Source: Picocystis sp. L7 (lineage: Eukaryota; Chlorophyta; Picocystophyceae; Picocystales; Picocystaceae). Taken from it: a stretch of DNA of 64,000 nucleotides. Position 1 is the first letter of the stretch. Every line of letters begins with the position of its first letter. The notes beneath the pieces were generated by a model, which was not told where the DNA came from, made no database searches, and worked only from the letters and a program-made list of their open reading frames with translations. The translations under genes and the position numbers were made by a program. This document shows positions 11,701 to 64,000 of the stretch, piece after piece. The stretch spans positions 277,777-341,776 of the forward strand of contig QXJR01000025.1 in NCBI GenBank assembly GCA_020975725.1, given 5' to 3'.

Positions 11701-14700
11701 GATTTTTCGTCACAGCGTGGATCTTATGCTGCTGGCAACATTTGCGTTCAGCACTTGTGAGAGGGACGTGATCCATGGCGGTTACTTGGCAATCACCTTC
11801 TGGTTTTTTAGAAGGAGGGAATCACTAAGGCAGCAAAAAAACAGCTTGTACTGGTATCTCAGGGCCTACAACTTTTTCGTAATCTTTGTCGGTCTTGCTT
11901 ATCAAGCACCTCACGGTTTGGTCAACAGACTGTGGTTTGGTGAGGGAAGTGATTGCAACATGCAGCATATCCTTGGGCTATATGGAATGGCAGGGTTTGG
12001 GAGCTGCTTCAGGATATCTGCTCAGGGTATGTGGCCAGATTTCTGTATATTCACGCTTGCATCTCTGCAGGCCTGCCTTTTTTCCCTTCCAACCTATGTT
12101 GACGCCATGCAGTGCTTGCGAGAGGGCAGGATCGCGACTGCGGCAAAAATCAATGAAGCGAGGCAAGAGTGGAAGAGTAGGCAAGTTGCTGCTGCACTAG
12201 AACGGGTTTCAGCTGCAAGGACCCATAGGATGCAGGTTCGCAAGTTAAAGGCTGGGGTGCGTAAGTTTTCTTCCACCCCTGGAGACGGCGAAGGAAGTGA
12301 TTTCCAACTTGCAAGCCTCACAGCAGATCTTCCAAGTAGAAAACGGGCAGAAAAGAAAAGGAAGGTCCCATCCTTTCTCCTCCTGCCTTCCTCTGGGCAT
12401 TCCATGGAGGCCCAAGCAGACGACAGCCTCTCAGGTGAACAAACCGGTCCTCAGACCCTCGCCGAAAGCCCAAGCGCGCTGCGTCGCATCACTGGATGGG
12501 TTTCCAATGCAGCCAGGTCCCTTCTTCAGAACAGGCATGACAATGAGTCCCGGATTTGCAACTTTGTATTTGTGCTTGAGTATCTACACAGTTTTTCGAT
12601 CATTTCTTTGCCGTTTTTACTCGCATCGCTGGGCTATGCTGTGGTTGGAAGTCCCCGGACTAAATTTTGGGTGCTGATGCTGGTATACGCGGAAGTTCTA
12701 CTGCTTGCTCAATACGCGTTTGGCATTCCATGTACCCTGCGCTGTTTTGAATGTGAATCAGGAGGTCCAGATATGGCACTCACCACATGTCTATGCCGAA
12801 AGTTAGATTGGTTAGGTCTGCAAGACCCACAAGGCGAAACATTTTTCCTTTCTGGCAACTGGTCACTTATGATTGTCTATTTGTCCATACTCTTTCACGA
12901 ATACTCTCTTGCAAGGAGGGGCCACGCTTTGCTTGATCCAGGAGCTGAGGACGAGTTTGCAGATGCAGGGGCAGAAAGGGGGGAAGGAGACACGGGAGTG
13001 GAAATTCTGGGTGGGCGAGAGGAAGGCGTGCAAGGATCGCATGCTATCATAGACATGAATGTTGGCTACTTGACTAAGATAGTGGTATTTATGAAGAGAA
13101 TCATGAAACGTACGGAGTTGGACCCGTATTATGTGTACTTCTCTGCTACCATACCCGAAGCTTCTGGGTCGAGCAATGCACAATGCTTTCTCACCGAGTT
13201 TGACTCTTTCTTGACTGCACATGGCTACTCTAAAGAACAGAGATGCATTGAGTCCCTACTCCTGAGAGACCTGCAACAGGAAGGGACGACAAAGTTTTCT
13301 GCTTTGGTTGAGGTAATCCCAAGGCCTTCCTATTTTTACATGCAAGGTTGCAGCTTCTGTCCAGCCTTGGATTTTGCCAGTTCTCTCCAGAGTTTTGCTG
13401 TGGCAAGTTCTAACAGATCGCCAGTAGAGGCAAAAGGTGCATCAACAGGTCAGCTTTTGGTGGGTGAAGTTCAGCAAGTTTCTCGGCCAGCGAGCGATAC
13501 CTATGCACTTTGTTTTCTGTTCGACAGTATCTTTTTTGTATTTGTGACCATTACATACCAACGAGCAATGCACAACACGCAGTCACTTGTTCAAAGCGTG
13601 TACCAACAGCTCTTTCCTTACGACTTTGTGTTTTCTTTGCTAGTGATTTTCTGCCTCATTGTTTTGGAGAGGGCTGCTTACGTGACTCGGTCTCACTTTT
13701 CTAAAACGCTGTTGCACTACTTCAACCTGGCCCTGTTTACCACATTTTGTTTTGTTACTTACTGGGGGTGCGCTCCCTTTCAAAGGAAGTTCGTGGTGAT
13801 AGCGTACGCTTTCAAATGTGCTTCCATGGCTTTCTCTGCCAGGCAACTCCACTGTGGTTACCCAAAGGTCACAGCCAATTACTTCTTCATGCATCGTGTT
13901 GATTACATGACCAGCTATGTGTTTATGGTCTACTACTCAGTTCCGTTCATACATGAGCTTCGCTCCATTTTGGACTGGACATGCACAGAAACCTCCCTCA
14001 AGTTGATCGATTGGATGAAGTTAGAAGATATCCGCATGACATTGTTCAGTGTTAAAGCAGGGCTTCTTTCCCGTCGCAATCGCTGTGTGGGAGACAAGCA
14101 GCCCCTCTACATGAAGTTTTTCAGTGGGGCGGTCCTCTTTTTCATTGTCTGTTTGGTCATTTGGCTTCCATTGATGTTCTATTCTACAGGTAACCCAAGC
14201 CTCCTTCCGAACCCAGTTCAAGACATCAGCATCAATGCCACGTTGTTCTCAGATTCAGGGGAAGCCTTCAACCTCTTTCAAGGTGGAGCCCAGCATTCCA
14301 TACAGTTTTGGGATGGTCTGCAATACAAAGACTCAGCATCTGGCAACACCACAACAAAGTTCCCCTTGGCACTAGCAGAGTATTTACCGGAGCAAGTGCA
14401 GGTGGCTTGCGTTGCGCCGGATGCAGACTTCTTGTGGCTTGCAAGCCCCCCTCTCGTGAAGGGTGTGCTCAATGCATCACACGGTAGTCTGTCCCTTCAT
14501 TTAGGGTGGACTTTCACTAGACAGCGGCCTCCAGACAATCGACTTCTGAGCGTCTCCGTTGCCCATAACCTCTCTGTAGGAGACAAGGAAGACCTCCGCC
14601 AAATGTTGGAGGGCAACGCCTCTGTCTCAATGGAGCTACCGCAAATGTTCGGGGCTTTTTTGCATCTACCAGGGGAGGGAACAGTAGAGCTGGGATTTCT

Positions 14701-15238
14701 GCAGCAAAAACTGCCGTGGATGATCAACTGCACACTTTCTCTTCTTAGAGAAGGATGGAAAGTGTGGTGGCGTATGCCCTGTTCTGTCGGGAACCCTCGT
14801 GAGCTCCCCACAGATCTTCCTAGAGATGCGAATTTGTCCATCAACGGATGTGCCGCAGATGCAGGACCCGTGGCCATCGTTGTCTCTGAGCGTGCACCAG
14901 CTGGTGCCTTGGGAGAAGCAGTCGGTCGTGTCGGAATCATTGGTTTGTATGCCACGTTTGTGCTGGCTGTGGGGAGGTTTTTGAGGCTGGCTGTCTCTGA
15001 CTTGCAGAAACAAATCTTGTTTCAGGACTTACCAGACGTCAGTAGAATAGAGGCCTTGATCCAGGAGATTGATGCAGCCCGTGCAGCTGGCGATTCCGCG
15101 CTCGAAGAGGAACTTTACTGGACTATTGTTCGAATTTATCGAACACCAGCATTATTGTATGAGCTGACCCTACCAACCCAATCGGATCGTAACATCCTCC
15201 CGTGGGCGCTCGGATCACCCAAACTGAAGAGGGATTGA
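8744..15238 (+). CDS. PIEZO: PIEZO-type mechanosensitive cation channel
   Basis: Large trimeric membrane channel opened by membrane tension. The 2,164-codon frame is one uninterrupted exon with dozens of hydrophobic helices, as in PIEZO blades. The diagnostic C-terminal module is clear. Around residues 1735-1800 an ELRSILDW segment leads to WMKLEDI..LF..K and a hydrophobic inner helix ending in IWLPLMF. An extracellular cap follows (about 1815-2050). Then comes the last helix (GIIGLY..VL, ~2060), and the conserved cytosolic end with F.DLP.V.RI and EEELYW..VRIYR. Length is within the family range. Start is uncertain: ATG 8744 has ACC before it but gives an Arg-rich leader overlapping a G-box (8748-8753), while ATG 8819 (residue 26) begins MDWLALWW. 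A CDS start at 8819 is plausible. Confidence 0.95.
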   Translation: MPRGAPGRSRRRCDCTRRSEKAWRAMDWLALWWLVLPHPSPWRCAYVAAMMAMSLTREASRVLRIPVAAMALVQAMGDLACAWWAEPSQAKQEWENWVMGTASGWNITAGLDVMAAAVLVWNAWCDPSAPRREEDDHSIHPEDAQSEESMAACVTKMGSVVLVMLACTISSAEASWMLVITLVAGTGTLLYACTVGKCHGLAKVTLIVASGLVILRYAATAGEKVGFFPSSQEERIGLLPACPWERTLLLVGMPVSCFLSRKETVNYMHEGTTHLSAALENFVRKASTAWIMQASMSIAALCVSCWGMGKLLFGLHLICSILIALDMRSFPGTGIASSRPALVAASAVALMHSLTMCVAACVPVHVQWIGKHQLASKALRMLGLQTISTREDVLPVLVLGCLASMAGTVKASSHSLGQHQLVSVWRRNLSLVVLFCLGLFAATSTPGYNMKGWMYVAACMLCILLLCFRANLGSRSHSLTSSSDLSQPLLQEVSAFVGFENTGSAERQISSMTARPNDSSHFATLEAAQHARRQADVALAPLLFCSILHLLVQYAAPSSTSCGLWNPSDDEAWEWYHSLGFQVDELSKTVLLTTLLVPLSILLVHSLLNQALPARSSSFLASCGTGRGKQYIWKCLVACSGGMVALASFLDSIATKGLLGGLFLLLLGMRWIAPLSPYVARGPRILQGSAAFISLVGLYARQIPYLKGCLRKCLVALDCIGFPEVSPGWKEDVLNFGPHLFLIVALAFEAYALEWVQQYYRPPAGRNPPWAICTVFDHGDSNVSMVEQYPVPEDVTHTQLFHSEQRRQLHLQYRTIHANLKVRVNFFWELYGLGALKFCLLIGAMLIVNVISLIYLALLATLVLAGEQRASKFSLRLVLPVLGLVFAWQYVLYTRCYLHCDIDSLGRVALTGTDGFSKEWLAMTRPGAQYICVYFCAFAFCLHQCFVKLCCKRFGVRAPSFSSHGWMPLSYQWKERWTWLDRLRFMIFRHSVDLMLLATFAFSTCERDVIHGGYLAITFWFFRRRESLRQQKNSLYWYLRAYNFFVIFVGLAYQAPHGLVNRLWFGEGSDCNMQHILGLYGMAGFGSCFRISAQGMWPDFCIFTLASLQACLFSLPTYVDAMQCLREGRIATAAKINEARQEWKSRQVAAALERVSAARTHRMQVRKLKAGVRKFSSTPGDGEGSDFQLASLTADLPSRKRAEKKRKVPSFLLLPSSGHSMEAQADDSLSGEQTGPQTLAESPSALRRITGWVSNAARSLLQNRHDNESRICNFVFVLEYLHSFSIISLPFLLASLGYAVVGSPRTKFWVLMLVYAEVLLLAQYAFGIPCTLRCFECESGGPDMALTTCLCRKLDWLGLQDPQGETFFLSGNWSLMIVYLSILFHEYSLARRGHALLDPGAEDEFADAGAERGEGDTGVEILGGREEGVQGSHAIIDMNVGYLTKIVVFMKRIMKRTELDPYYVYFSATIPEASGSSNAQCFLTEFDSFLTAHGYSKEQRCIESLLLRDLQQEGTTKFSALVEVIPRPSYFYMQGCSFCPALDFASSLQSFAVASSNRSPVEAKGASTGQLLVGEVQQVSRPASDTYALCFLFDSIFFVFVTITYQRAMHNTQSLVQSVYQQLFPYDFVFSLLVIFCLIVLERAAYVTRSHFSKTLLHYFNLALFTTFCFVTYWGCAPFQRKFVVIAYAFKCASMAFSARQLHCGYPKVTANYFFMHRVDYMTSYVFMVYYSVPFIHELRSILDWTCTETSLKLIDWMKLEDIRMTLFSVKAGLLSRRNRCVGDKQPLYMKFFSGAVLFFIVCLVIWLPLMFYSTGNPSLLPNPVQDISINATLFSDSGEAFNLFQGGAQHSIQFWDGLQYKDSASGNTTTKFPLALAEYLPEQVQVACVAPDADFLWLASPPLVKGVLNASHGSLSLHLGWTFTRQRPPDNRLLSVSVAHNLSVGDKEDLRQMLEGNASVSMELPQMFGAFLHLPGEGTVELGFLQQKLPWMINCTLSLLREGWKVWWRMPCSVGNPRELPTDLPRDANLSINGCAADAGPVAIVVSERAPAGALGEAVGRVGIIGLYATFVLAVGRFLRLAVSDLQKQILFQDLPDVSRIEALIQEIDAARAAGDSALEEELYWTIVRIYRTPALLYELTLPTQSDRNILPWALGSPKLKRD

Positions 15239-19298: not shown

Positions 19299-21651
19299 GA
19301 CGCTGATTGTACCCAATTGTTTGTCAACAAGTCGATGGTGATCACGGCTCGCGAGCCTGCAGCCGCCTTTCCATATCTCTTGTCAGTAACGAGCACGTGC
19401 TGCAGACGATAAGATGCATAGCCTCAACCCATGCATGAACAACTGTCCGTTGCGTCTAAAACGCTGATTGGCAAAGGGGGGTCCGGCGAAAGATTCGCTA
19501 TGCTTGCATATCGATGTGACCAGGTACCGTCAAGGCATTAGCAATCAACATTCCAGGATTTCCCAATGTCTAATGTAGATGTTTGCACTTTGAAAATGCT
19601 CCAAAGGTACACGGTAGGCGCATTACGTGACTACATTTTCGAAGATGATATCTTGTGCTTGTGTCCTCAGTTCAAGGCATTGTCCTGTTCTGGTATCTCA
19701 GAAAGTTTGTTCCCATAGTCTGGCAAAGTTTGCGCCGCCGCTGTGCGAGTGATGAAGGTGAACAGCTTCACGCGAGCAGATCTAAAGAAACCTGAGCGAT
19801 TAGCGACTGTCTGTTTCATTGAAACGATTGAACATCGAAACGCACATAACCATCGTTGAATCTTTTGCCCCTACCACTTTCTCCTACATATAGTAACCAC
19901 TGATCGCTGTTAGCCTCTGGGTTTTTCTGTGGGTGTGGCGATTGCAACTATTGCTCGTGAGTACTGTAACGAGCGCGCGGCAGCCAGAGCCACAACCCCT
20001 GCATCCACCATGGGAAATAAAAATGGACTACCACAGGCGGCGTTATTTGTAAGATCTACTCCAGTTGCAAGGAAATTTATCACTGTATGCACGTGATGAG
20101 CACAGCATGCGAGCCCATAGTGAAGACAAGCTATACAGACAAATCGTATTTCCAGCCAGCAAAGATTGAACTTTACACGGGTACAATTTCAGGGCTAAAG
20201 AATCAGCAGAGCAACGGCATTGGCAATCCATTCATTTACAGTATGCAAGAACATCGTCAGACGAGATGTAAATGTTGGTGTCTTCCAACTCACTTTTGAT
20301 TCTACGAGTTGCAGATGAATAGCCCACTGCACTTTTACGTGCTTGAGGGCTGGTACAGAATGACAGAATACACGATGCTACATGGCCAGTGCACAACGCC
20401 AAAGCAAGATTGTAAGCTTGCCTACCTTGCAAGGAAGGCACAGCCTCCTATTACTTCGAACCTTCATGCGAACAAAGCGATTGAGGAATCTACATCGTCA
20501 ACAACTACAGCAGTACAGAGGACACAGGAGTTGACGCTTTTGGACACAATCATATATTGTCTCAAAGTAACTTGATTTCAATGAGCGCGTGCAGCCACAG
20601 CTAGGACATCTTACCTGTGACTGTACAAGAAGCCGGAGCCTGGTCTATCGTGCAACCAGACATCACACTTTTGCCCAGCAGACCATAGGAAAAAGCCACT
20701 GTAAATTTGGAATTCAGGCAGGTAAGCATATTATCATTGTGATGATGAATGAGAGCAGAACTCCCCCAAATCGACAATTTTTGCCCGCGTTTTGGACACG
20801 TCGAGAAAAAAGCAACCAAGCATTTGCCAATTGGTCTGATTAGCACAAGCAATCCTGCGTCGATCATGTTACCCTTTGCCATGAAAGTTTGCAGCAAATC
20901 TTGAACTTAGATGCGACAAAACGGAAGAGAAGAGCGCTTTGCCGCCGTTTCCAACCGCGGACGTCGGCAAGAGCACTTTCACTTGGTATGCACCTGCCCG
21001 ATGCAGGTCTAGGGCGTGTTCACGAAGTTGTGTAGAAGTGCATGCCGTTGGGTGGTATCGCAATCCCCTCCACGTGTCACTAGCGTGTGCTATTGCACTC
21101 CGTTTCAAACCATCAATTTGAAAACGAAGTCGGGCAAGGTCCTGCTCGTCGGCGTACGGTCCCCAGTCCCCATTCTTGCCTTCCCGAGTCCTATCGTCGG
21201 ATCGCTCGAGACCCTCGCCCGAAGAGGATCCGGGGCGTGCCCATCGTCTAGTACACACGATGCGCTTCTGGACCTTCCTTCGCGCCCCGTGGACCGTCCG
21301 ATCGGCGAGTCCCTCGGACGCATCGAAAGGACACGTACCCAGCATCTCCCTGCAAGACACGTGCACCGTACGATGCCACCACAGGGACACGTATCCTTCC
21401 GAGGGTGTCCTCGTCGGCAACCGATTCTCACGTGCGCTTGCCCCGGGGGGCTTTCTGGTTCATGGCCCCCGGGAAGGACCACGTGTCTCGCAGAGGAGTG
21501 CCTTTACGCTCCCTCGTCCCGATCCTGGAGGAATGGGAGACAAGATGTGGGGCGAAGTAAAGATGCATTTCCCAGCACGCCACGTAGACTGAAAGATTGC
21601 ACGTGCACGCTCGCGATCCAGCCGCGGCGCAGACGGCTTGTGCGCCCGGCC
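19299..21651. other. Intergenic region and promoter of bZIP gene 2
   Basis: The first ~1.7 kb is AT-richer and shows no gene above chance. From about 21070 the DNA becomes GC-rich and carries a cluster of CACGTG motifs at 21071, 21358, 21429, 21480 and 21600. Two more lie at 19394 and 20090. The clustered part is the probable promoter of the second bZIP gene. The open frame that continues the bZIP reading frame upstream to 21016 is not accepted as coding. Confidence 0.5.
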
Positions 21652-22302
21652 ATGGAAGAGACCTGGGATGGAGCAGACTGCGAGCAGCTGTTCTTGAACC
21701 ACTTGGAACCCGAGTTGTGCGAAGAAATCCTGGGAACAGCGGACCCGCACTTGGGACACCGGAACCATCCTACATGTGCACCAAGTCATGCTCCTGGAGA
21801 CATGGGCCTGCAGACCAACCGAAGGGTGCCGACCACCCTCGTGAACGTACCTGCAAATGCAAGAAGAAGAAACGAACCATGGCTCTTGGAAGATAGCCAC
21901 CAGTCCGACGCAACCACGGACGAATTGCACGTTGCATTTGAGGTGCTGCGAGCGAATGGATACCTCCCTGCTACAGGAGAGAGATCTGCATCTGTGGAGG
22001 TGGAGTTTACAGGTCATCCGTCCGAAGAGGAGCGAAGAGCCATGCACAAGACACTGGGAGAGGAGGCCCCGACACTCCCCGAAGGCAACGAAGATCCCTA
22101 CAAAAATCTACAAGATATTCAAGATCCGGAAGAACGGCGTAAAGCCAAGCGATTGGCTCGCAACCGTTTGAGTGCGAAACGTGCGAGAGAACGTACCAAA
22201 CTCAGACTGCATCAACCTGAGATTGAGAATAGGAAACTTGTTCATGAAAACAATAATCTCACACAGATGGTGACCTACCTCTTTGCAAGATTAAAAACGT
22301 AG
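21652..22302 (+). CDS. bZIP transcription factor 2
   Basis: A 216-aa bZIP protein. The frame is open to 21016, but I start at ATG 21652 (GGCC before, G at +4), because upstream lies promoter-like G-box DNA and the acidic N-terminus here resembles that of bZIP 3. The basic region is about 162-182, with Asn171-x7-Arg179 (NRLSAKRAR). Zipper leucines at 196, 203 and 210 are in heptads. Pro189 lies where the first zipper heptad should run, which would kink the helix and leave a short zipper. A conserved block just before the basic region (EDPY..L..IQD.EER, about 147-162) is shared with bZIP 3, marking them as tandem paralogues. Partner and targets are unknown. Confidence 0.88.
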   Translation: MEETWDGADCEQLFLNHLEPELCEEILGTADPHLGHRNHPTCAPSHAPGDMGLQTNRRVPTTLVNVPANARRRNEPWLLEDSHQSDATTDELHVAFEVLRANGYLPATGERSASVEVEFTGHPSEEERRAMHKTLGEEAPTLPEGNEDPYKNLQDIQDPEERRKAKRLARNRLSAKRARERTKLRLHQPEIENRKLVHENNNLTQMVTYLFARLKT

Positions 22303-24207
22303 GACAACATGCAACGCTCCATGACCTTGATAAAGAACCAGCATTGTAGGAAAGTTGCGATCCCCTTGCCGGTTGGGGCATAGGCAGGCAAAACTAGCCA
22401 CACGTGGATGTCTGCAAGAGGCAGGTGCAATATTCCCCGTTCCGAAAGGCGAGCCATGGCAAGCAATGAATTGTTGCAGAAAGGGCCTTTCTATTCTTCG
22501 ATTCAACGCACAATTTGGTGAACTGCTGAATCAGTATGGCGAAATAGGTTTTAAGGCAGCTGAAGAGTTTTTTATGATAAGGTGGCATATTTCTCTGACA
22601 CTACACACCAAAGGGGTACGCACGGAAAGATGCACAGCAAATGAAACATTTATAGAAAGCCAACTGAAATTGAATCCAAAAACTTCACTAGATCGCCCGC
22701 ATGCATTCAAGCACCCTCGGCTGGACCACAAGCCAACCAATATGACCAGGTTAGACCCAGAGCAATCTACTCGTTGACTCACAATGTACAGCCCTTTCTT
22801 TCGGTAGGTGCATTCAATCCCTCCCAATCGCCCAGGTGTTCAAGGGAAAGAGCTTTGCCACGCACCTAAGCACGGGATACACAGGCACGGCCGAAAGCTT
22901 CCCACTTCTCAATGGCATAACGTTCCTCACTGGAAAATGCCAGATCCAGAGCTTACCACAAGGGCAAAGCTTGTGCACTTCCTGTTTCGCGTGTGATGTT
23001 GGCAGCAACACAAAGCCCCAACGTCTTGCCTGCTTGCACAGGAGACAGTGGGCAGATGCTCCTGCCGGGCAAGACTTGCTGATGTTTATACACCCGCAGC
23101 ATGCCGTGGGATGCCAGCAGCATCTGCTGCACTGAAGGGGCTGCTCCACGCATTTCGATGGGTGGAAGAAAGCCACAGCATGATTCCATCAGTCTGCATA
23201 TCTTTGTTTTCGGTTCCTTTTTCCTGCTTTGGGAGATATCGGGGCCTGACTTTGCCTCTTCTGCAGAGACCAGCTCAACTTCGATCTACCAGATGGGATG
23301 GAAGTGTCACCTGATGGCATGGCACAGCCGGAGCCTGTCGAGTTCCGCTCACACGTGCTCCTGTCCTTGGCCCGTCCATGCAAGAGAGGCATTGTGGTTG
23401 GTGCCTTGTGCCACTGCTTTCCTTTTATCCTGGATGCACCATCTACCCCGTCTCTCGCCAAACCCTTCTTCGTATGGGGGATCGCCCCAGATCGCCCCAG
23501 ATCTTCGAAATCTACTTGCCTGGTCTCGTGGCCGTACGGTGGAGGCCCCTCGGATCGTCCGGCGGGGGCCTGCAGATGACCGTTACGACGGGAAGCCCGG
23601 GGAGGGGTCTCTCGATTGGAACGGGCTCGAGGTGCTACAGCTTATCCAACGTCCGTTCGGGTCCGATTCGCCTTGAAGACGAAGGCGGGAAAACCAAATA
23701 CGGTGGTCGGTCGGGGGAACTGGACCGTACACGCGGCTCGATCCGTACTCGCAGAGGACGGAGCCATCGTAGTCGGAGCAGTCTCCCCCGATCCTCTGCG
23801 GGTCGTGGGTTGGCGTTCGTCCCATCCTCGATGGCGGCTCCTCCCCCCAGCTTGGATCGCTCGTATCTTCCTGGATTCTCTCGGGGATACGCATTCGAAG
23901 ACGTGTCCCTTTCCAGGAAACACGTATCGCCTTCCCATTGGTCGAATTTGGGGCGGTGTCCGATCAGCAGGATCGTCACCACCGCCCATTGGTGGAATGG
24001 GACGCACGTGATCGTTCGTCCCACGTGGGACGGGTCGACCCCGGGTCCCGGTGCGCGTGGCGATTCGCTTTTCGGGGGAACCGACGGTGTCGGTTCGTCT
24101 CTTCAAAGCTTACGTGAGGATCAACAGAGCACCAGAATCGAAAGCAGTTGGTGCTTCGCGAGCACGAGAGCGTCTCGGCTGACACAACGTCGTCTGGAGG
24201 CGCGAAC
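22303..24207. other. Intergenic region and promoter of bZIP gene 3
   Basis: 22303-23400 is AT-richer and has no firm gene. A 191-codon plus frame (23101-23676) and a 120-codon minus frame (22814-23176) are unrecognised and overlap. From about 23600 the DNA is GC-rich. It has CACGTG at 24005-24010 and 24022-24027 (the latter in the 12-bp palindrome TCCCACGTGGGA) and two ATTGG (inverted CCAAT) motifs at about 23938 and 23990. Those lie within 300 bp of the bZIP 3 start. Confidence 0.5.
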
Positions 24208-24900
24208 ATGACCGCAGGCGAACGGCTCGAGGAGCAGCTGTTCGCCGAGATGTTGCGGGAGGCCAGGGCAGTGGAAGGGATGCAGCACTCCGCAGCCCAA
24301 CGCGAAAGGCTCCGCGAGCTCGTCGAAATGGAATGGATGCATGACCCAGACGTGCAACCGTCCGACGGGGAAGACGTGGAGCGAGCCACGAGGCTACCAC
24401 CCTACCATCTGCGATGGGTGCCCAGAGGGCTCCGACAAGAAGCAAGGGACACGGTCCAGGCAGGCACGGAGCACCCAGAACGAAGCAATTGGGAAAGGTC
24501 CAACTACACCAGCCATCCTTACCTCCCGAACCCACCAAGGATGGTGCTGCAGCCCGATGAGAACTGGCCACATGCAGGCACGAAGCAAACCACGGACATG
24601 AGAGGGACGTCCTCGGACAACGAGGAGGATCCATACGCAATCCTTTCCACCATCCAGGATCTGGAGGAACGTCGCAGGGTGAAGCGGCAGATTCGGAATC
24701 GTTTGAGCGCCAAGCGCGCAAGAGATCGCTCCAAGTCGAAGATGGAGGAGCTGCAACAGGAGAATCAAGCACTGAAAGAGGAAAACGCAAGGCTGAGCAC
24801 GCTAGTCGGGAAGCTTCATGGGCAGATGCTCCGCCACAACAGGTCGGCAGTGCCTACCAGCAATGTAGAAGAGAAGCGCAGCAGCGAGTTTCTCATCTAG
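24208..24900 (+). CDS. bZIP transcription factor 3
   Basis: A 230-aa bZIP protein. I start at ATG 24208 (A at -3), as the frame runs a little further upstream without an ATG. The acidic N-terminus is followed by the block EDPY..L..IQD.EER (140-155) shared with bZIP 2. The basic region (about 156-176) has Asn164-x7-Arg172 in NRLSAKRAR. A textbook zipper has leucines 182, 189, 196 and 203, with glutamates and glutamines between that favour a parallel dimer. It could homodimerise or pair with bZIP 1 or 2. The upstream palindromic G-box makes autoregulation or cross-regulation plausible but not shown. Confidence 0.92.
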   Translation: MTAGERLEEQLFAEMLREARAVEGMQHSAAQRERLRELVEMEWMHDPDVQPSDGEDVERATRLPPYHLRWVPRGLRQEARDTVQAGTEHPERSNWERSNYTSHPYLPNPPRMVLQPDENWPHAGTKQTTDMRGTSSDNEEDPYAILSTIQDLEERRRVKRQIRNRLSAKRARDRSKSKMEELQQENQALKEENARLSTLVGKLHGQMLRHNRSAVPTSNVEEKRSSEFLI

Positions 24901-26643: not shown

Positions 26644-28274
26644 TGCATGGTGGCAGTTCCCAAAAGCGCCAACGATGGCCATCCCAGAGAGAATCGGCAC
26701 TTTGAAAATTCCGGATATCGCACAGAAGCGCACGACAGTTTTGTTTGAATAAGATCGGTGCACCCTCCCGTTCGGGCTGGCTGGTAATACATGATTCCTT
26801 GTGCCGAGATGCGTGGAACTTTGATTCGATGCACAACCCTGAACCTCTGCATACTTATGGTGAACCGCGATTCTGTAGTCCAAAGCGTACAAGCAACCAG
26901 CCCGACGGGTTCCTTCGGTTCTCGCTGGAATTACGGATCGGGCTACGTCCGTCTCACTGGCCTCGCAAATGTGCTCTGTACAGGGAGCAAAGAGAGTGCG
27001 ACATGGTTGTTCACACAACGAAGATGCAAGCACAGACGCATACAATACGTGGTGTAGGATTGCCAGCTGCCAAGATCTCTGCAGAAAGCGCTGATCGTGG
27101 GCCTAGTGAGACCTCAGTCCGTGTGACCAGGTCAATATCGTCCATGCGCAATGGCATCGATGAAGCGTGCACAAGTGAATACTGGCAGAACAATTCTTAG
27201 CAAGCTGCTCGCTTTCATTCGTGTGATGATGTAATCATCGGCAAATCACTTGCCGCGATTTCAGTTCACTTCATAAAATCCTCTTTGCAAGGAGGCAGAG
27301 ATGCTGGACGGGCATCTTCGCAGTTCACCAATGCCTCGTATACAGGGACATTTCCATAGTCAGATCTGTGCTTAAACAACCTTGGCGTTGGCTGTTCAAA
27401 CCAGAAAAGCCAATGGTCACGTGCGCATGGATCTTCCATAGAACCTTGGATCTCTCACGCGCCACAAGCATTGCTACAGTGTGGCCAAGACAAGTCCTAA
27501 GACGGACTATCGGAAAGAATTCGTCTCTCAGGTATGTTGGATGCATCATTCAAGTGCAACTCTTGATGCCTTTACAGCATGCCTCTTGTTGGGAGCACCG
27601 AGGGCACACTGGTTCCCCGACTCTTTCAACACCTGGACGCGTGTGTCGTTGAGTACCTGCACCTACGGGGTGTGTCCTCTTGCCTTCTGTGTCAATTGTT
27701 CAGCTGTCATCTGCAGACATCATAATGATGTTTCCTGCACGAGGCCATGGGCATGGTCTCCACCGGCCATCGATGAGCAATCCATGACACAAAGTCATGC
27801 CAGCAAACTTTTTTCTCATAAAAGTATGGAAGAGGTCCACCATCCCAGCCATTTTTGAATCCTGCACAAGGGTAGTTTCCTATCGGGAAGAGAAGCTGTT
27901 CTTCCTGTCTTCTGCTTTTCAAATTCTACCTTGGGCATCCTGCTTCCGACAACGTGACCAGGCATCACACTCCACCCCCACCTGTCCTTGCCGCCCTGGT
28001 GGTTAACTTCGAGTTCCTTTCTCTCAGGCCCCGACGATGCCATGAGTTAAGTAAGGCGGTTGCGACGGAAGCTCCTATCCAGTTCCTCGGAACGATCCGA
28101 ACCGGTCTCCCCTGCCAATCCCTCACGAACCCGATCCACCGGTCCGGTTTCCTCGGAACGATCCGAACCGATCCCCCCCTGCCAATCGCTCACGAACCAC
28201 CCCCCCGGACCGGGGGGACACGCATCCGAGGGGACACGTGTCCCCGACGGTTGATCGGCTGTAGCAGAGCTCGG
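26644..28274. promoter_or_regulatory. Intergenic region with duplicated promoter block and 16-bp G-box palindrome
   Basis: 26644-27950 has no firm gene; a 151-codon plus frame from 26745 lacks an ATG at its start. A 66-bp direct repeat begins at 28083 and 28149 (each starting TTCCTCGGAACGATCCGAACCG), and each copy has a CCAAT box (28115-28119 and 28182-28186). Just downstream, 28230-28245 is a perfect 16-bp palindrome, GGGGACACGTGTCCCC, centred on a G-box, 30 bp before the ATG at 28275. This is a well-defined promoter for the kinase gene. Confidence 0.6.
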
Positions 28275-28898
28275 ATGCATGCTGCGCGTGCTGCGCTCAT
28301 TCCACGCCTGTCCGTCACACGAAGGCGCTTGCGTGCCGCGATGGCGAGCGGAAAAGACAAGGCAGAAGTGCAGGTGGACGAAAGCCTCGGGCTGGAGCTC
28401 GTGGCCCTGGAAAACGAACGTGGCGTAGGCCTCATCGTCGGCATGGCGCACTTCATCAAAACCGTGGAAGACCTCCAGGAAGCGTTGGCGGGATCCGTGC
28501 CGAACGCACGATTCGGCGTGGGATTCTGCGAAGCGTCTGGAGATCGACTGGTGCGCTGGGATGGGAACGTGAAAGATCTGGCGAAGCTGGCTCGGGATTA
28601 CGCCATGCAGATCAACTGTGGACATGCATTCGTTTGTTGCATTGAAAATTGCTTTCCAGTACATGTGCTCAACGCCATCAAAGCCGTGCCAGAGGTTACC
28701 ACGGTCTACTGTGCTACCAACAATCCCCTCATGATCGTTGTGGCCAATGCCACCAGCAAATTCCACACCGGAAGAGGAATTATGGGTGTCGTGGACGGAC
28801 GGGCATGCGTGGGCGTCGAGGAACAAGAGCAGCAAGGTGGTCGGAGAAAGCTTCTGCAGGACATTGGGTTGAAATTTGGACCCAATTACGAGAAATGA
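28275..28898 (+). CDS. Adenosine-specific kinase (PF04008-type), possible organelle presequence
   Basis: Resembles the archaeal/bacterial adenosine-specific kinase family (formerly DUF355). The core begins about residue 30, with GLIVGMAHFIKTVEDL, then FGVGFCEASG.RLVRWDGN, HAFVCCIENCFPVHVLNAIK..PEV..VYCAT.NP, and RGIMGVVDG near the end. These blocks match the family in order. The prokaryotic proteins are about 160 aa; this one is 207 aa. The extra N-terminus (from ATG 28275 to the inner ATG at 28341) is Arg/Ala-rich, has no acidic residue, and looks like a mitochondrial or plastid targeting peptide. Without it the protein would be 185 aa. The distribution suggests an old transfer from prokaryotes (inference). 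The physiological reaction is poorly known even in prokaryotes. Confidence 0.85.
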   Translation: MHAARAALIPRLSVTRRRLRAAMASGKDKAEVQVDESLGLELVALENERGVGLIVGMAHFIKTVEDLQEALAGSVPNARFGVGFCEASGDRLVRWDGNVKDLAKLARDYAMQINCGHAFVCCIENCFPVHVLNAIKAVPEVTTVYCATNNPLMIVVANATSKFHTGRGIMGVVDGRACVGVEEQEQQGGRRKLLQDIGLKFGPNYEK

Positions 28899-29353: not shown

Positions 29354-31318
29354 CTAAAAGCCAGCGACCACATTTTTGCCAACCAACGAAAGAACAATCC
29401 ACTGCATTACATCCGTGTTCCACTCCAGGAGCTGGTTTGTTCGCTTGGACAGCACCACCTCCCCCAGACCCTCCAACGAATGAGGATACAGGGACTCCGT
29501 GGTGCCAAACACAGGGACGTCCACACGGACCAACTGCCGCTCCATCCATTGCCACTCCGTCCCGTTGTGGGAGGCCACCTTGGAGCCCGTCCAGTCCAAC
29601 AGCGAAGAACCCTCCATCCCCACCAGGGCATAGCGAAGCGACTCGTTCGAGCTGGCAAACACCAACCCAAGCAGGCTCTCTCCCCCCACCTCCAAAGCCT
29701 GGGGCTGTGCAAGCCCTTCTCTGGCATTCGGCAATGGGTTCGGGCGAGCATCTCCCGCCAACCGCCACCCAAGCGCCGAGGAGGAGTACTGGAGGAGCTT
29801 GCCAGAGGACAACTGGGCGTACTCCCCCACGCCGTCCAACTGTAGAAGCACAGCGTCCGCATGGAGAAGACCCTCAAAGTGCACCGCATCACGTCCAAGG
29901 CCGGCCGCATGAGAGGCAGCGCCCGCCGTTTGCATGAGGGTCGCCACTTGATGATGGGTCAGGTCAAATGGATCCCGCAAGGGAGAGCTCTCCCGGGACC
30001 CCACCAACGGTTGTCCATGGGATGGTCTCTGGAGCGGACGTAGCACGTGGTCCACTTCCAGCACTTGGATGGATCCACACTGAATGCGCACGGGGGAAAC
30101 GAGGCGGGCGTACCCGTCCAGGGTCACCTCGGCGGGGCGTTGAGGCAGCTGCAGTTCCGTCTCGTTGGACTGGACCGGGGCGCTCACCCACAGGTGGTGC
30201 CCCGAGGCGGTTTCCAGGATGGATTCCCCCAAAAAGGTACGCACCAGATGCGAAGGGGTCCAGCCACGGATCACCACGTGATAGGAGACCACCTCCTGCG
30301 CGTCTGGGGAGGATGCCCATGCCTCGGGCGTCTGACCCCTGGCGTGGGCGTGTTCTCGGATGGCCTGCGGGGAAGGCACCAGGACCAAGGCCACCCGAGA
30401 CAAAGGCATTGTCTGGGTAAGATTGGTGCGCTCCAGCATGCCGGCAAAGAGATCGTACCCCATGGCGCGGAGACCCATCTCCAGGCTGCAACCCGTGCTT
30501 TGCCAGGAGAAGAAGAGATCGTTGGATTGTCTGCCCGAGTCCAAATCGAAGTTCCTTCCAAAGCCATACACACCTGCCCGCTGGGAGCGGATCACATTGC
30601 CTCGAGAACGAACGCGATTGCCAGTTGTATCAAACAGGCGGAACCGAATGGGCAGGACCAACCTTCCCGTGAGTTCAAAGGTAGCGCCCCACGTCTTTCT
30701 CATGGTCGTCCAACCTCGCTGACCCTTTTTGCCCATTCCAATTCGGACCTTTCGTATCTCTGCACTTCCTGCCACCCTGTACATGCGCAGTCTGATCCAG
30801 TTGTCTCGAAATTGATCGACTTGCACTTGGATGTTTCCGGGCGGGGTGCACTCCACCTGTCGGTACCGCATGTAGAAGTTTCCCACGGAAGCCGGGGCCA
30901 TCTCTTCGAAGGTCAAGGCCTGTAGATCGACGTGATCGTCACGACACTCTGGGCACTTGTCTGTGACCACCACCTGCACCCGGGATCCGGGGTAGCATCG
31001 ATTGTCGTCGCATTCCAATTCCAAGCAGGATCCGCAGCCTTCCACGGGGCCTTGATGCTGGGGGAGTCGCACGGAGATGCCGGCCACTTTCCAATGGGGC
31101 CATTCGTCGGGGTCCAGCCGTCCGTATCCACAGCTGCCTTCCAAGGTTCCAAAGCTGGGTGTTTGTGGATTCATGCCATCGGGTCTACCACCGTAGAAGG
31201 TGGTGTATCCTCTCCTCCATGAGGTGATGGCTTTTTGGGCCACCACGCCACGGCGGTGGTGGTGCAACCACAAGGAGATCCAGAACAGGACCAGGGACAG
31301 GTGGCGTGCACCTTCCAT
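29354..31318 (-). CDS. Expansin-like / fasciclin secreted protein, copy A
   Basis: A 654-aa secreted protein. A signal peptide (about 1-27) is followed by a six-stranded double-psi beta-barrel (about 37-160) with GYTTFYGG, CGYGR, EGCGSC, VVVTDKCPEC and HVDL (His129, Asp131). A CBM63-like polysaccharide-binding domain (about 162-245) has the WGATFEL core. A fasciclin-like domain (about 270-440) has the PS..I.E..., EVVSYHVV and DGYARLV signatures, and an unrecognised C-terminal domain follows. Expansins loosen walls without hydrolysis; fasciclin domains mediate adhesion. It is nearly identical to copy B, except at residues 187-234, where 23 of 48 residues differ, and in the last few residues (ends LVGKNVVAGF). 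Where paralogue C has the usual HFD, this has HVD. Its cassette is basic. Confidence 0.88.
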   Translation of the reverse strand: MEGARHLSLVLFWISLWLHHHRRGVVAQKAITSWRRGYTTFYGGRPDGMNPQTPSFGTLEGSCGYGRLDPDEWPHWKVAGISVRLPQHQGPVEGCGSCLELECDDNRCYPGSRVQVVVTDKCPECRDDHVDLQALTFEEMAPASVGNFYMRYRQVECTPPGNIQVQVDQFRDNWIRLRMYRVAGSAEIRKVRIGMGKKGQRGWTTMRKTWGATFELTGRLVLPIRFRLFDTTGNRVRSRGNVIRSQRAGVYGFGRNFDLDSGRQSNDLFFSWQSTGCSLEMGLRAMGYDLFAGMLERTNLTQTMPLSRVALVLVPSPQAIREHAHARGQTPEAWASSPDAQEVVSYHVVIRGWTPSHLVRTFLGESILETASGHHLWVSAPVQSNETELQLPQRPAEVTLDGYARLVSPVRIQCGSIQVLEVDHVLRPLQRPSHGQPLVGSRESSPLRDPFDLTHHQVATLMQTAGAASHAAGLGRDAVHFEGLLHADAVLLQLDGVGEYAQLSSGKLLQYSSSALGWRLAGDARPNPLPNAREGLAQPQALEVGGESLLGLVFASSNESLRYALVGMEGSSLLDWTGSKVASHNGTEWQWMERQLVRVDVPVFGTTESLYPHSLEGLGEVVLSKRTNQLLEWNTDVMQWIVLSLVGKNVVAGF

Positions 31319-31333
31319 GATCCAAAAACGCGA
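29394..31333. repeat. 1.94-kb duplicated block, copy A
   Basis: This block recurs at 33164-35103 with a constant offset of 3,770 bp and no net indel. By eye the copies are identical apart from the cassette at 30624-30755 and one base at 29476 (Leu or Met codon). The match begins about 15 bp upstream of the start codon and ends about 13 codons before the stop, so flanking DNA is not shared. Confidence 0.9.
30624..30755 (-). other. Divergent cassette of copy A (CBM63-like domain)
   Basis: Aligned by eye to 34394-34525, this 132-bp stretch differs at about 51 positions, while about 1.8 kb around it differs at one. The middle (a GAGTTCAAAG segment and neighbours, encoding WGATFELTG) stays conserved, so the changes fall in two sub-blocks either side of the domain core. 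Confidence 0.88.
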
Positions 31334-33117: not shown

Positions 33118-35088
33118 TCAATTTCCAAGATCTTCACCAATAGCTTGGGTGGCCGCTGACAGTACAATCCACTGCATTACATCCGTGTTCCACTCCAGGA
33201 GCTGGTTTGTTCGCTTGGACAGCACCACCTCCCCCAGACCCTCCATCGAATGAGGATACAGGGACTCCGTGGTGCCAAACACAGGGACGTCCACACGGAC
33301 CAACTGCCGCTCCATCCATTGCCACTCCGTCCCGTTGTGGGAGGCCACCTTGGAGCCCGTCCAGTCCAACAGCGAAGAACCCTCCATCCCCACCAGGGCA
33401 TAGCGAAGCGACTCGTTCGAGCTGGCAAACACCAACCCAAGCAGGCTCTCTCCCCCCACCTCCAAAGCCTGGGGCTGTGCAAGCCCTTCTCTGGCATTCG
33501 GCAATGGGTTCGGGCGAGCATCTCCCGCCAACCGCCACCCAAGCGCCGAGGAGGAGTACTGGAGGAGCTTGCCAGAGGACAACTGGGCGTACTCCCCCAC
33601 GCCGTCCAACTGTAGAAGCACAGCGTCCGCATGGAGAAGACCCTCAAAGTGCACCGCATCACGTCCAAGGCCGGCCGCATGAGAGGCAGCGCCCGCCGTT
33701 TGCATGAGGGTCGCCACTTGATGATGGGTCAGGTCAAATGGATCCCGCAAGGGAGAGCTCTCCCGGGACCCCACCAACGGTTGTCCATGGGATGGTCTCT
33801 GGAGCGGACGTAGCACGTGGTCCACTTCCAGCACTTGGATGGATCCACACTGAATGCGCACGGGGGAAACGAGGCGGGCGTACCCGTCCAGGGTCACCTC
33901 GGCGGGGCGTTGAGGCAGCTGCAGTTCCGTCTCGTTGGACTGGACCGGGGCGCTCACCCACAGGTGGTGCCCCGAGGCGGTTTCCAGGATGGATTCCCCC
34001 AAAAAGGTACGCACCAGATGCGAAGGGGTCCAGCCACGGATCACCACGTGATAGGAGACCACCTCCTGCGCGTCTGGGGAGGATGCCCATGCCTCGGGCG
34101 TCTGACCCCTGGCGTGGGCGTGTTCTCGGATGGCCTGCGGGGAAGGCACCAGGACCAAGGCCACCCGAGACAAAGGCATTGTCTGGGTAAGATTGGTGCG
34201 CTCCAGCATGCCGGCAAAGAGATCGTACCCCATGGCGCGGAGACCCATCTCCAGGCTGCAACCCGTGCTTTGCCAGGAGAAGAAGAGATCGTTGGATTGT
34301 CTGCCCGAGTCCAAATCGAAGTTCCTTCCAAAGCCATACACACCTGCCCGCTGGGAGCGGATCACATTGCCTCGAGAACGAACGCGATTGCCATCAGAGT
34401 CAGTGATCTCAAGGCGGAGAGGTGGCTCCAGCCTGCCCGTGAGTTCAAAGGTAGCACCCCATGTCTGTCTCATTCTCAGCCACGTTCGATCATTCTCTTC
34501 GCGCACGCCAACTTTAACCTCTTTGATCTCTGCACTTCCTGCCACCCTGTACATGCGCAGTCTGATCCAGTTGTCTCGAAATTGATCGACTTGCACTTGG
34601 ATGTTTCCGGGCGGGGTGCACTCCACCTGTCGGTACCGCATGTAGAAGTTTCCCACGGAAGCCGGGGCCATCTCTTCGAAGGTCAAGGCCTGTAGATCGA
34701 CGTGATCGTCACGACACTCTGGGCACTTGTCTGTGACCACCACCTGCACCCGGGATCCGGGGTAGCATCGATTGTCGTCGCATTCCAATTCCAAGCAGGA
34801 TCCGCAGCCTTCCACGGGGCCTTGATGCTGGGGGAGTCGCACGGAGATGCCGGCCACTTTCCAATGGGGCCATTCGTCGGGGTCCAGCCGTCCGTATCCA
34901 CAGCTGCCTTCCAAGGTTCCAAAGCTGGGTGTTTGTGGATTCATGCCATCGGGTCTACCACCGTAGAAGGTGGTGTATCCTCTCCTCCATGAGGTGATGG
35001 CTTTTTGGGCCACCACGCCACGGCGGTGGTGGTGCAACCACAAGGAGATCCAGAACAGGACCAGGGACAGGTGGCGTGCACCTTCCAT
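33118..35088 (-). CDS. Expansin-like / fasciclin secreted protein, copy B
   Basis: A 656-aa protein with the same order as copy A: signal peptide, double-psi barrel, CBM63-like domain, fasciclin-like domain, C-terminal domain. It is identical to copy A by eye except for one Leu/Met change, the cassette at residues 187-234 and the C-terminus (ends AIGEDLGN). The cassette is acidic here (REEND against GKKGQ in A), and several residues (DR.W.RM, then ITDSDGN) match paralogue C better, so B seems closer to the ancestral form. Its upstream DNA is unrelated to that of copy A and has two G-boxes (35285 and 35360). The two copies may therefore be expressed under different control. Confidence 0.88.
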   Translation of the reverse strand: MEGARHLSLVLFWISLWLHHHRRGVVAQKAITSWRRGYTTFYGGRPDGMNPQTPSFGTLEGSCGYGRLDPDEWPHWKVAGISVRLPQHQGPVEGCGSCLELECDDNRCYPGSRVQVVVTDKCPECRDDHVDLQALTFEEMAPASVGNFYMRYRQVECTPPGNIQVQVDQFRDNWIRLRMYRVAGSAEIKEVKVGVREENDRTWLRMRQTWGATFELTGRLEPPLRLEITDSDGNRVRSRGNVIRSQRAGVYGFGRNFDLDSGRQSNDLFFSWQSTGCSLEMGLRAMGYDLFAGMLERTNLTQTMPLSRVALVLVPSPQAIREHAHARGQTPEAWASSPDAQEVVSYHVVIRGWTPSHLVRTFLGESILETASGHHLWVSAPVQSNETELQLPQRPAEVTLDGYARLVSPVRIQCGSIQVLEVDHVLRPLQRPSHGQPLVGSRESSPLRDPFDLTHHQVATLMQTAGAASHAAGLGRDAVHFEGLLHADAVLLQLDGVGEYAQLSSGKLLQYSSSALGWRLAGDARPNPLPNAREGLAQPQALEVGGESLLGLVFASSNESLRYALVGMEGSSLLDWTGSKVASHNGTEWQWMERQLVRVDVPVFGTTESLYPHSMEGLGEVVLSKRTNQLLEWNTDVMQWIVLSAATQAIGEDLGN

Positions 35089-35103
35089 GATCCAAAAACG
35101 CGA
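33164..35103. repeat. 1.94-kb duplicated block, copy B
   Basis: Partner of 29394-31333. The left limit is at ACAATCCACTGC (33164) and the right limit is in CCAAAAACGCGA just upstream of the start codon. Outside these points the two loci show no similarity. Confidence 0.9.
34394..34525 (-). other. Divergent cassette of copy B (CBM63-like domain)
   Basis: Counterpart of 30624-30755. It encodes the same 48-residue region, with 23 amino-acid differences from copy A and no length change. Confidence 0.88.
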
Positions 35104-36863: not shown

Positions 36864-38861
36864 CTAAACCCTCAGCAATCTACGATTGCTTCCACCAAGC
36901 TGAGCGATGCTGGCACTCACGTTCTCAGGTGAACTCGTGGCCAAGGACAAGAGGACCCACGTTTCCGTTGCACTGGACCACTCCAGGATTTCCCTGTTCC
37001 AAGGTGCAACGGCGATCTTAACCTCGCCTTGTACGGGGTACACGTAAAGGTCCTGGAGATCCCCATGCACTTGTATGGTTTGTCGCTCGGGTAGAGGCGT
37101 CAATTCTATCCACTCTTCACCGTCAAGGCGAGCGATGTGAATTGGAACGCTTCCGCCGCCTTCCTTTGTCTCCAATGGAGTGATGGCCACCAAAGCTCCG
37201 TCCAAGGTCTCAAACAAAAGGGCGGGTTCCCTCTGTCCGCTGATGGTGACTTCGCCTAGGAATACAACCGGCGGTGTTTCGGGGCTTGATTCCTCCAGGG
37301 ACTCACGTAGATCATACCACTGCAAGGAGTCTGGAGTGTATCTCAAGATCTTCTCATCGGGCAGAATTGCAAAATCAGAGAAGCCGCCGATCTGGAAGAC
37401 AATCGCATCCTCAAAGAGCTCACCTTGGTAAAGTACTCCTTTACTGCCGAGACCTAGTGCGGTGCATGCCCTCCCTGCAACCAGCGTAAGATCTACAAGC
37501 CCAGAATCACCATCCTGGCCGTTGTTGGAAGGTTCATCTACGACTCTTGTAGTCAGACCGAGTGTGGGTTGCACGTGCCCATCTTGGTCGCTGGGTTGAA
37601 GGAGACTATCCACAGCAATGATGCCTGCTTTGGGACACACCTGCTTGAACGGATCTGTCACAGCTGCAATGCCATCAAACAGGACATCGTCTGCGCTTTC
37701 AGGGAGAGAAGGAGCACTGCCCTCGTTCACCTTACCAGAGATGCGCACAGGCACTCTCGCAAGTGTTTCAAGTACAGTGTCGCCGCTGAAAACCCGTGAA
37801 ATCTTTAGGGAATCGATGTACGTAGTGAGTACGTGATATGAAACAACTTCTCTTGCTTCCTCAGACTGGAGGAATGGTTCCATGTCCAGACCCTTGCTCT
37901 CAACATACTTTTCAATCACATCGTCTGGAACGGCAAGGAGTGTTGCAGCAGATCGCCCGCCAAAATTGTCTGGAAGCTGCACCTCCTTCAACATGTCAGC
38001 AAACAGGGCAAAACCGTTTGCTCGGAGCTCGGCTACCATGTTGCATTCGTTCGGGGCTTGTGCAAAGTCGTCAACAGCAACTGAAGCGTTGTTAAGGACA
38101 CTTGATGTGCTCATAGTCGCGTCAAAGTTTGTGCCAGCATCGAACTCTCCGGTTTTGCGGTCGTATACGCTGCCTTCCGAAACCACTGTGTTGCCACTTG
38201 AATCGGTGACTTTAAAGCTCATTGGAGTGTCGATATATCCATTCAACTCAAATGAGGCCCCCCAGGTTTTCTTCATGCGCACCCAGCTGCGATCGGGTCC
38301 GGCGACTTCGACGGATTCAATCTCTGCATTACCAGCCACGTGATACATCCTCCCTCTCATCCATGTTCCTGTCAGGCCGTCTAGCTGGACTCTCATGCTG
38401 CCTGGTGGGGTGCATTCCACCTGTCTGTATTTCATGTAGAAGTTCCCGGCAGATTCTGGCCCAATTTCTTCAAAGATCAGTGCTTGCAAGTCAAAGTGGC
38501 CCTCTCGACATTCGGGACATTTGTCTGTCACAACGACCATCACGCTTTCCCCGGAGTAGCACCTGTCATCATCGCACATGACCTCGTAGCAAGATCCACA
38601 GCCTTCCACCGTCCTTCCATGGTCGGGTACACGAACGGAGAGGCCCGCCACTGCCCAGTAGGGCCATTCATCACGGTCCAATCTTCCATAGCCACAGCTG
38701 CCTTCTTTCGTCCCGAAGCTGTACGAAGTAGGACTCATCCCGTCCGGTGCACCCCCATAAAAGGTGGTGTATCCATCTTGCCAGTCGGAGATTGCTTTGT
38801 AAGCCTGGGCTGTGGCGGCGGCCCACCCCACCAGGACGGCCAAGAGTCCTTTTCTCGTCAT
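36864..38861 (-). CDS. Expansin-like / fasciclin secreted protein, paralogue C
   Basis: A 665-aa secreted paralogue of copies A and B, much more diverged. Signal peptide about 1-20. The double-psi barrel has GYTTFYGG, CGYGRLD, EGCGSCYE, VVVTDKCPEC and HFDL, so the usual expansin HFD triad is intact here. A CBM63-like domain has DRSWVRMKKTWGASFEL and TDSSGN. A fasciclin-like domain has LLAVPDDVIEKY, REVVSYHVL and FDGIAAV..., and the C-terminal extension matches A and B in layout. It serves as outgroup: its cassette region is more like B than A. Wall loosening plus adhesion is inferred from the families. Upstream DNA has no CACGTG noticed. Confidence 0.88.
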   Translation of the reverse strand: MTRKGLLAVLVGWAAATAQAYKAISDWQDGYTTFYGGAPDGMSPTSYSFGTKEGSCGYGRLDRDEWPYWAVAGLSVRVPDHGRTVEGCGSCYEVMCDDDRCYSGESVMVVVTDKCPECREGHFDLQALIFEEIGPESAGNFYMKYRQVECTPPGSMRVQLDGLTGTWMRGRMYHVAGNAEIESVEVAGPDRSWVRMKKTWGASFELNGYIDTPMSFKVTDSSGNTVVSEGSVYDRKTGEFDAGTNFDATMSTSSVLNNASVAVDDFAQAPNECNMVAELRANGFALFADMLKEVQLPDNFGGRSAATLLAVPDDVIEKYVESKGLDMEPFLQSEEAREVVSYHVLTTYIDSLKISRVFSGDTVLETLARVPVRISGKVNEGSAPSLPESADDVLFDGIAAVTDPFKQVCPKAGIIAVDSLLQPSDQDGHVQPTLGLTTRVVDEPSNNGQDGDSGLVDLTLVAGRACTALGLGSKGVLYQGELFEDAIVFQIGGFSDFAILPDEKILRYTPDSLQWYDLRESLEESSPETPPVVFLGEVTISGQREPALLFETLDGALVAITPLETKEGGGSVPIHIARLDGEEWIELTPLPERQTIQVHGDLQDLYVYPVQGEVKIAVAPWNREILEWSSATETWVLLSLATSSPENVSASIAQLGGSNRRLLRV

Positions 38862-54657: not shown

Positions 54658-54961
54658 CATTTCATTTGCAATACATTTGTTGGCATGAAATATCACCAAC
54701 CTTGCTCATGCACGCTTAATGCATAGTTTGGAATGTTTGATTGTATCATTGATTGTACATTTTGCAAATGTAGCACAGCATGCAAATGCATTACATACAA
54801 AAACCATGACCCGCTTTTATAAAGTACAAACCACACCGTCGATGTCTTCTTCCACCTCTCATTCGAAACTCCTAATTCGATATTTGCTGCCAGTAGAACA
54901 AAACTGCAGGTGTCCACCGATAGTTGCTGCTAGTAGAAAAAAAACTGCAAGTGTATACTGA

Positions 54962-57438: not shown

Positions 57439-58161
57439 TCAATTTGTGGGGCAAGTGCCCCACACGGGCTGTTTTGCTGAGTCGCTGGCGAACTCTGCAT
57501 TCAAGTTAAAAGAGGCTGGTTCATCAGCGATCTTGTCTACACACCAACCGGAAAGGTCTTGGTCGAAGCTCCTTGCACCGTTGAACATGCTACCCATGTC
57601 GGTCACACTGCTGGTGACCCAGCTCCCGATGTCTTGGTCGAACTCCCCGGCACCGTTGAACATGGACCACATGTCGGTCACACTGCTGGTGACCCAGCTC
57701 CCGATGTCTTGGTTGAAGTTGGTGGCACCGTTGAAGATGGACCTCATGTCGGTCACACTGCTGGTGTCCCAGCTCCCGATGTCTTGGTTGAAGCTGCCGG
57801 CAACGTTGAACATGGACCTCATGGTGGTCACCTGGCTGGTGTCCCAGCTCCCGACGTCTTGGTTGAAGGTGCTTACAAGAACGAACAGGGAACTCATGTC
57901 CGTGATCCCGGTCGTGCAGGTCAGTCGTATCTGCTCGTCCGCTGGATCATTATCAATAAGATTGTCCAGCTGGGCCCGGGTCCGTTTGGTGTAGGCATTC
58001 CCATTGACCTCCCCTGAATCGCCCACTTCGGCATCGGGACACAGCACGGTCACGTCGTTGTCGGCCAGAAAAAACACGTTCGGACCATCTCCCGCGAATG
58101 TTTGTTGGAGGCCCGTTCCGACGAGCAGGAGCATGGCGAGGAGGAAGGTGGGCGAGGTCAT
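57439..58161 (-). CDS. BspA-like (DUF285 repeat) secreted surface protein 1
   Basis: A 240-aa protein. A signal peptide (about 1-23, ending FAG) is followed by a ~65-residue unrecognised part shared with its partner, then five 24-residue repeats of the type [20 protein letters not shown]. This is the DUF285/BspA-like repeat family, known from bacterial surface proteins and abundant in some protists and algae. The last repeat passes into a Cys-containing cap (GWCVDKI ... GTCPTN). Likely a secreted or surface binding protein. It is divergent from a paralogue 448 bp away, and a fragment of a third copy lies at 59931. Confidence 0.85.
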
Positions 58162-63940: not shown

Positions 63941-64000
63941 GGTTTAGGGTTTAGGGTTTAGGGTTTAGGGTTTAGGGTTTAGGGTTTAGGGTTTAGGTTT
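63926..64000. repeat. Telomere, TTTAGGG repeats
   Basis: GGG, then nine perfect TTTAGGG units (63929-63991), then a unit missing one G. Orientation (G-rich strand 5' to 3' outward) is right for a right-hand chromosome end. TTTAGGG is the Arabidopsis-type repeat, found in plants, green algae and some other algae. Confidence 0.97.

Follow-up and report, generated by a model that had tools for sequence, protein, structure and literature searches.

Islands of divergence between paralogues that gene conversion otherwise keeps alike are a known pattern, and the gene pair described here (genes A and B) looks like a further case of it. In the human red and green opsin genes, the available portion of the published account describes neighbouring paralogues that are homogenised by conversion and a divergence peak in exon 5 (PMC3924837). 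A and B resemble them in this arrangement, but the opsin peak lies at functionally different sites, and the A/B island is known from one sequence and has abrupt edges. A second parallel is the intronless pair GOT1p1/GOT1p2 of Tigriopus californicus, for which the available text reports divergent islands in converted sequence with low Ka/Ks, as in A and B (PMC3728101). Conversion in the copepod is backed by several populations, in contrast to the single sequence that is available for A and B, and the same text also discusses a neutral account of its islands, with lower initiation of conversion and its suppression by divergence.

A and B encode expansin-like proteins, and the domain in which they differ, D2, has been studied in the bacterial expansin BsEXLX1. 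According to the part of that work that could be consulted, basic residues of its D2 bind acidic wall polymers, and mutating them lowers total wall binding and raises creep activity (PMC4755413). The isoelectric points of D2 vary among expansins, as stated in the available section of another source (PMC6300095). A search for literature joining expansin, fasciclin, alga and gene conversion returned nothing, and among the matches listed for expansin together with gene conversion, none apparently concerned converted expansin genes.

Layout and domains of the expansin-like genes

The window, i.e. the whole stretch of 64,000 nucleotides that was analysed, carries a eukaryote-like gene set with long uninterrupted ORFs (for example of 1,440 and 2,164 aa), which suggests an intron-poor eukaryote. 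Genes A, B and C (Table 1) most likely belong to an old array in which expansin-like genes lie head to tail, with spacers of ~1.8 kb between A and B and between B and C. Judged by their domain order, DPBB_1 followed by Expansin_C, all three are predicted two-domain expansins. In A, a hydrophobic leader recognised by eye is followed by DPBB_1 (residues 93–152, 32.7 bits, Pfam cut-off 28.8) and Expansin_C (residues 163–243, 33.5 bits, cut-off 24.6), and B and C likewise exceed the cut-offs for both domains. A fasciclin-like match at residues 290–428 of A stays below threshold, and the fasciclin domain scores under the Pfam cut-off of 22 bits in all three proteins (19.4 in A and B, 18.4 in C), so the fasciclin label that a sequence-only reading of this DNA had attached to A and B is not upheld.

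Table 1. Features of the expansin-like array, in coordinates of the window
Feature	Position	Strand	Description
Gene A	29354..31318	-	654 aa; profile matches and ORF
Gene B	33118..35088	-	656 aa; architecture as in A
Paralogue C	36864..38861	-	665 aa; architecture as in A; 39% identity to A
Identical unit, copy A	29394..31333	-	1,940 bp, from 15 bp upstream of ATG to codon 642
Identical unit, copy B	33164..35103	-	Ungapped comparison with A
Divergent island, A	30624..30755	-	aa 188–232, inside Expansin_C (D2); 51 of 132 bases unlike B
Divergent island, B	34394..34525	-	Ungapped comparison with A
Identical 20-bp patch	30666..30685	-	Divides the island in two
A 3' tail	29354..29393	-	Third base of V642, then L-S-L-V-G-K...; first codons resemble the B and C tails
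B 3' tail	33118..33163	-	L-S-A-A-T-Q..., like L-S-L-A-T-S of C

The nearest solved structures by sequence are Phl p 1, EXPB1, cotton GhEXLA1 and bacterial EXLX1, which share the DPBB and Expansin_C domains with A, B and C. Unlike those expansins, the proteins of the array have a long C-terminal region with the sub-threshold fasciclin match, and two of the three, A and B, are identical outside the D2 island except for one Leu/Met difference and their tails. The H-x-D motif of D1 (H129/D131 in A) and residues W174 and W210 of D2 are invariant across A, B and C; we take both to be conserved expansin residues, with the tryptophan pair presumably serving in binding. By a hand count in the alignment, W174 and W210 of A fall opposite EXPB1 chain positions 160 and 194. 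For D2 by itself, an AlphaFold model built from the three sequences has medium confidence (mean pLDDT 67.5) and contains seven strands. In a Foldseek search with this model, Phl p 3 and Phl p 2 occupy ranks 1–4, Phl p 1 rank 6, BsEXLX1 rank 16 and EXPB1 rank 21; sulfite oxidases, among others, fill the ranks between them, and no match reaches an E value of 0.001. The model of both domains together is poor (mean pLDDT 41.8); in the fold search with it, ranks 1–3 and 5 went to Phl p 2, Phl p 1 and EXPB1, as weak matches, none at an E value of 0.001 or better.

Relatives were also sought beyond the array. C is the sole further match to the island at E <0.1 within the window, with protein identities of 43% (A) and 49% (B). 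A search of genome contigs with the three-protein alignment gave 41 pattern matches, none of which was confirmed as a relative. One hit obtained with a fragment of C was discarded as an unrelated bacterial ORF with a common DKCPECRE stretch. Viral contigs contained no relative, including by an exact 31-base pattern, and none was found among phage sequences. The plasmid scan returned 33 records with bacterial EXLX1-type proteins, which are distant expansins, with 27–34% identity among the 20 matches listed.

Several other features of the window were recorded. Neighbouring ORFs at 21016–22302 and 24148–24900 share a motif (EDPYKNLQDIQDPEERRK / EDPYAILSTIQDLEERRR) and are perhaps another old tandem pair; the bZIP profile scores above the Pfam cut-off in the second and below it in the first. 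The ORF at 27954–28898 encodes an adenosine-specific-kinase family protein (Pfam Adenosine_kin, 1.8e-56), a mainly prokaryotic family, in this eukaryote-like setting. A 2,164-aa ORF at 8744–15238 has many hydrophobic stretches and appears Piezo-like by eye, and a GH19 chitinase, at 46064–48565, has a linker of proline-rich repeats and carries CBM_14, a chitin-binding domain, at its C-terminus. Repetitive elements comprise a DDE_Tnp_4 transposase ORF (54962–55927) adjoined by a 40-bp tandem repeat (54878–54954) and two mutually inverted arrays of a 75-bp repeat (57556–57900 and 58901–59511), the second within a DUF285 ORF. Some ten perfect copies of TTTAGGG (63926–63997) lie at the right-hand end of the window, and an ORF that is gag-like by eye (63266–63940) extends into them; this may be the end of a chromosome, together with a retroelement, or else an array in an internal position.

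A sharply bounded block of divergence in D2

The two copies are nearly identical outside one sharply divergent block. The ungapped alignment of the 1,940-bp unit contains 52 differences, 51 of them within the island; the only one in the remaining 1,808 bp, at 29476, is the Leu/Met difference. Such clustering would arise by chance with a probability of ~3e-55. The limits of the unit are exact at 29394 and 31333, and the edges of the island are abrupt. The unit stops 40 bp (A) or 46 bp (B) short of the end of the CDS and is thus nearly coextensive with it. Within the island, 33 codons and 23 residues are changed across codons 188–232, with no change in length. The earlier reading, made by eye, had proposed a shared ~1.94 kb, about 51 changes in 132 bp against one in ~1.8 kb, and 23 altered residues at constant length; all of these counts were reproduced by the alignment, in which the differences are clustered rather than evenly spread.

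The mode of divergence within the island was assessed with NG86 counts. Between A and B, pS is 0.53 and pN is 0.33 (dS 0.91, dN 0.43), giving dN/dS of ~0.47. This value offers no support for positive selection on the island or for the selection for diversity that had been proposed for it, and it is compatible with an island that selection maintains as well as with one that it does not. The description of the changes as mostly amino-acid changing holds for the raw counts (33.2 non-synonymous, 17.8 synonymous) but not per site, since the synonymous rate exceeds the non-synonymous rate (Fisher p = 0.042, calculated on rounded counts). The divergence therefore looks like purifying-type change over a long time, and like the product of neither positive selection nor hypermutation. 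The dS values between A and C and between B and C are at or near saturation, above that between A and B, and the A and B islands share three codons that are missing from C, so the two cassettes are sisters relative to C. The earlier suggestions that C resembles B and that A is the changed copy lost their support when polarity was assigned by C: among the 48 sites that differ between A and B and have a base in C, 19 match B, 11 match A and 18 match neither (19 versus 11, p = 0.20, not significant), and the changed copy is not inferable from this comparison.

The 20-bp patch that interrupts the island differs from its surroundings in codon choice. A and B agree at all six of its degenerate codons, compared with 3 of 13 degenerate same-residue codons in the remaining island (P ~1.5e-4, a post-hoc contrast). 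Protein conservation alone leaves the shared synonymous choices without explanation, and the patch may be a tiny converted segment; such micro-conversion would fit patchy heteroduplex repair or repeated exchange.

The base composition of the island does not support a foreign origin. GC3 is 0.58 in the A island and 0.53 in the B island, compared with 0.71 in the remaining gene; it is also low immediately beside the island (0.56 and 0.60) and in the corresponding stretch of C (0.57). A foreign composition is thus not supported, although the value of B is near the minimum of the gene (2 of 522 windows of 45 codons are as low; for A, 26 of 520), and a signature of GC-biased conversion was set aside because the neighbours are low as well.

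Sequence beyond the unit was used as a guide to the age of the copies. Past the 3' edge, V-L-S is encoded in A and B by different codons (GTT/GTA, CTT/CTG, TCG/TCA) and is followed by LVG in A, AAT in B and LAT in C. With random peptides of the window as the null, the resemblance to the tail of C over 2–10 residues has P values of 0.0006 to 0.04 for A, where the signal fades with length (P = 0.04 at 10 residues), and of 0.00007 to 0.013 for B, and peptides from 12 ORFs of the window gave similar values. Compared directly, the A and B tails are less alike than either is to that of C (P 0.02 to 0.03 at six residues). Both tails, over a few codons, look native, which makes A and B seem older than such high identity would suggest. 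The upstream flanks lend this no support: those of A and B score 45.5, and unrelated stretches of the window reach up to 51.0 (A) and 55.5 (B). Residual upstream homology between A and B had initially seemed significant, as 0 of 30 mononucleotide shuffles reached the score and dinucleotide shuffles of the 700-bp flanks gave weak significance (3 of 100), but it was dropped because it did not stand out against nine other stretches of the window, taken on both strands. The upstream score of B against C (57.5) is slightly over the best control for B (55.5).

Origin of the island

We consider it probable that A and B are old tandem duplicates that were recently homogenised by gene conversion and that the cassette is an unconverted island. 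Interlocus conversion, probably of the ordinary kind, would have recently overwritten nearly the whole CDS of A or B with that of the other copy, starting 15 bp upstream of the ATG and reaching codon 642, and would have spared the tails. The 132-bp stretch of D2 would have escaped through a patchy tract, through two tracts, or because its conversion was rejected or selected against, and would thereby retain ordinary paralogue divergence (dS ~0.9, dN ~0.43). We infer the conversion itself, its direction and the number of events from a single sequence. The near-coincidence of the unit with the CDS, the sharp edges, the excess of pS over pN, the neighbour-like GC3 and the sister relationship of the cassettes all agree with this model, the edges suiting a recent event more than they would a gradient under long-term selection, and the internal patch suggests patchy exchange. 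On the other side, a long conversion between templates of ~61% identity would be mechanistically demanding unless it was continuous, two sharp edges require a patchy tract or two tracts, GC3 of the B island is lower than in nearly all windows of the gene, and the tails contribute a handful of codons while the upstream flanks are silent. The choice that had been put forward earlier, between a foreign cassette swapped in and conversion of its surroundings, thus leans to the second option, which fits the native-looking tails better; GC3 like that of the neighbours lends the first little support.

A somewhat unlikely alternative is that homogenisation, or a recent duplication, of A and B was followed by the replacement of one cassette through a conversion tract of ~132 bp from a third, unseen paralogue of the A/B type. 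One short tract would account for the sharp edges and the short length, the cassette spans a complete D2 segment that is homologous and in frame, and the low GC3 of the B island could be read in the same way, but an extra donor is required where the window offers only C, and the island matches its immediate neighbours in GC3. That the 1,940-bp unit was recently duplicated as a segment and its cassette altered afterwards is distinctly improbable. The single difference outside the island, the abrupt ends of the unit and flanks without homology above that of unrelated stretches would be expected, but a dS of 0.91 is too high for ordinary mutation since such a duplication, both breakpoints would have to fall near the ends of the CDS by chance, and one copy should carry unrelated sequence past the 3' edge, whereas both tails in fact resemble native C-termini and V-L-S recurs with different codons. 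A chimera of copies or haplotypes in the assembly is very improbable: near-identical repeats are error-prone, but the window has no N, the ORFs of A and B are both open, polishing is an unlikely source of two coherent, in-frame cassettes with purifying-type divergence, and if A and B had been swapped, the effect would be limited to which cassette occupies which locus. Targeted hypermutation, similar to that of diversity-generating retroelements, would restrict change to one segment predicted to bind ligand, as seen here, and is nevertheless hardly credible, given that the synonymous rate exceeds the non-synonymous rate, that transitions (25) and transversions (26) are balanced, and that the adenine-biased substitution of retroelement targets is absent from the island (changed bases of B: A 15/36, C 16/30, G 12/41, T 8/28).

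Charge of D2 and wall binding

The net charge of the island is +9 in A and −1 in both B and C, and the corresponding values for the whole D2 are +14 (A), +4 (B) and −3 (C); the aromatic core of D2 is kept between A and B. The turn from a basic to an acidic loop that had been described earlier is therefore real for the island but does not extend to the whole D2, which remains net basic in B. Given this change in charge and the binding of acidic polymers by basic D2 residues in BsEXLX1, a difference in binding between A and B is plausible, and by analogy the two may differ in wall target. More tentatively, the island may have been retained because the strongly basic D2 of A and the weaker one of B favour different wall polymers, with A favouring acidic ones. 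The broader idea of modular specificity, in which conversion unifies the proteins and the D2 charge module is held distinct, for acidic versus neutral polymers, by selection or by exchange with further, unseen cassettes, is unlikely.

If the island is not selected, the pair clearly exemplifies patchy gene conversion and cautions against equating peaks of divergence with positive selection. If it is under selection, A and B represent a natural domain swap, in two proteins that differ by 23 residues of the island, a single Leu/Met and roughly the final dozen residues, and the pair could be used to test whether the charge of expansin D2 sets the wall target.
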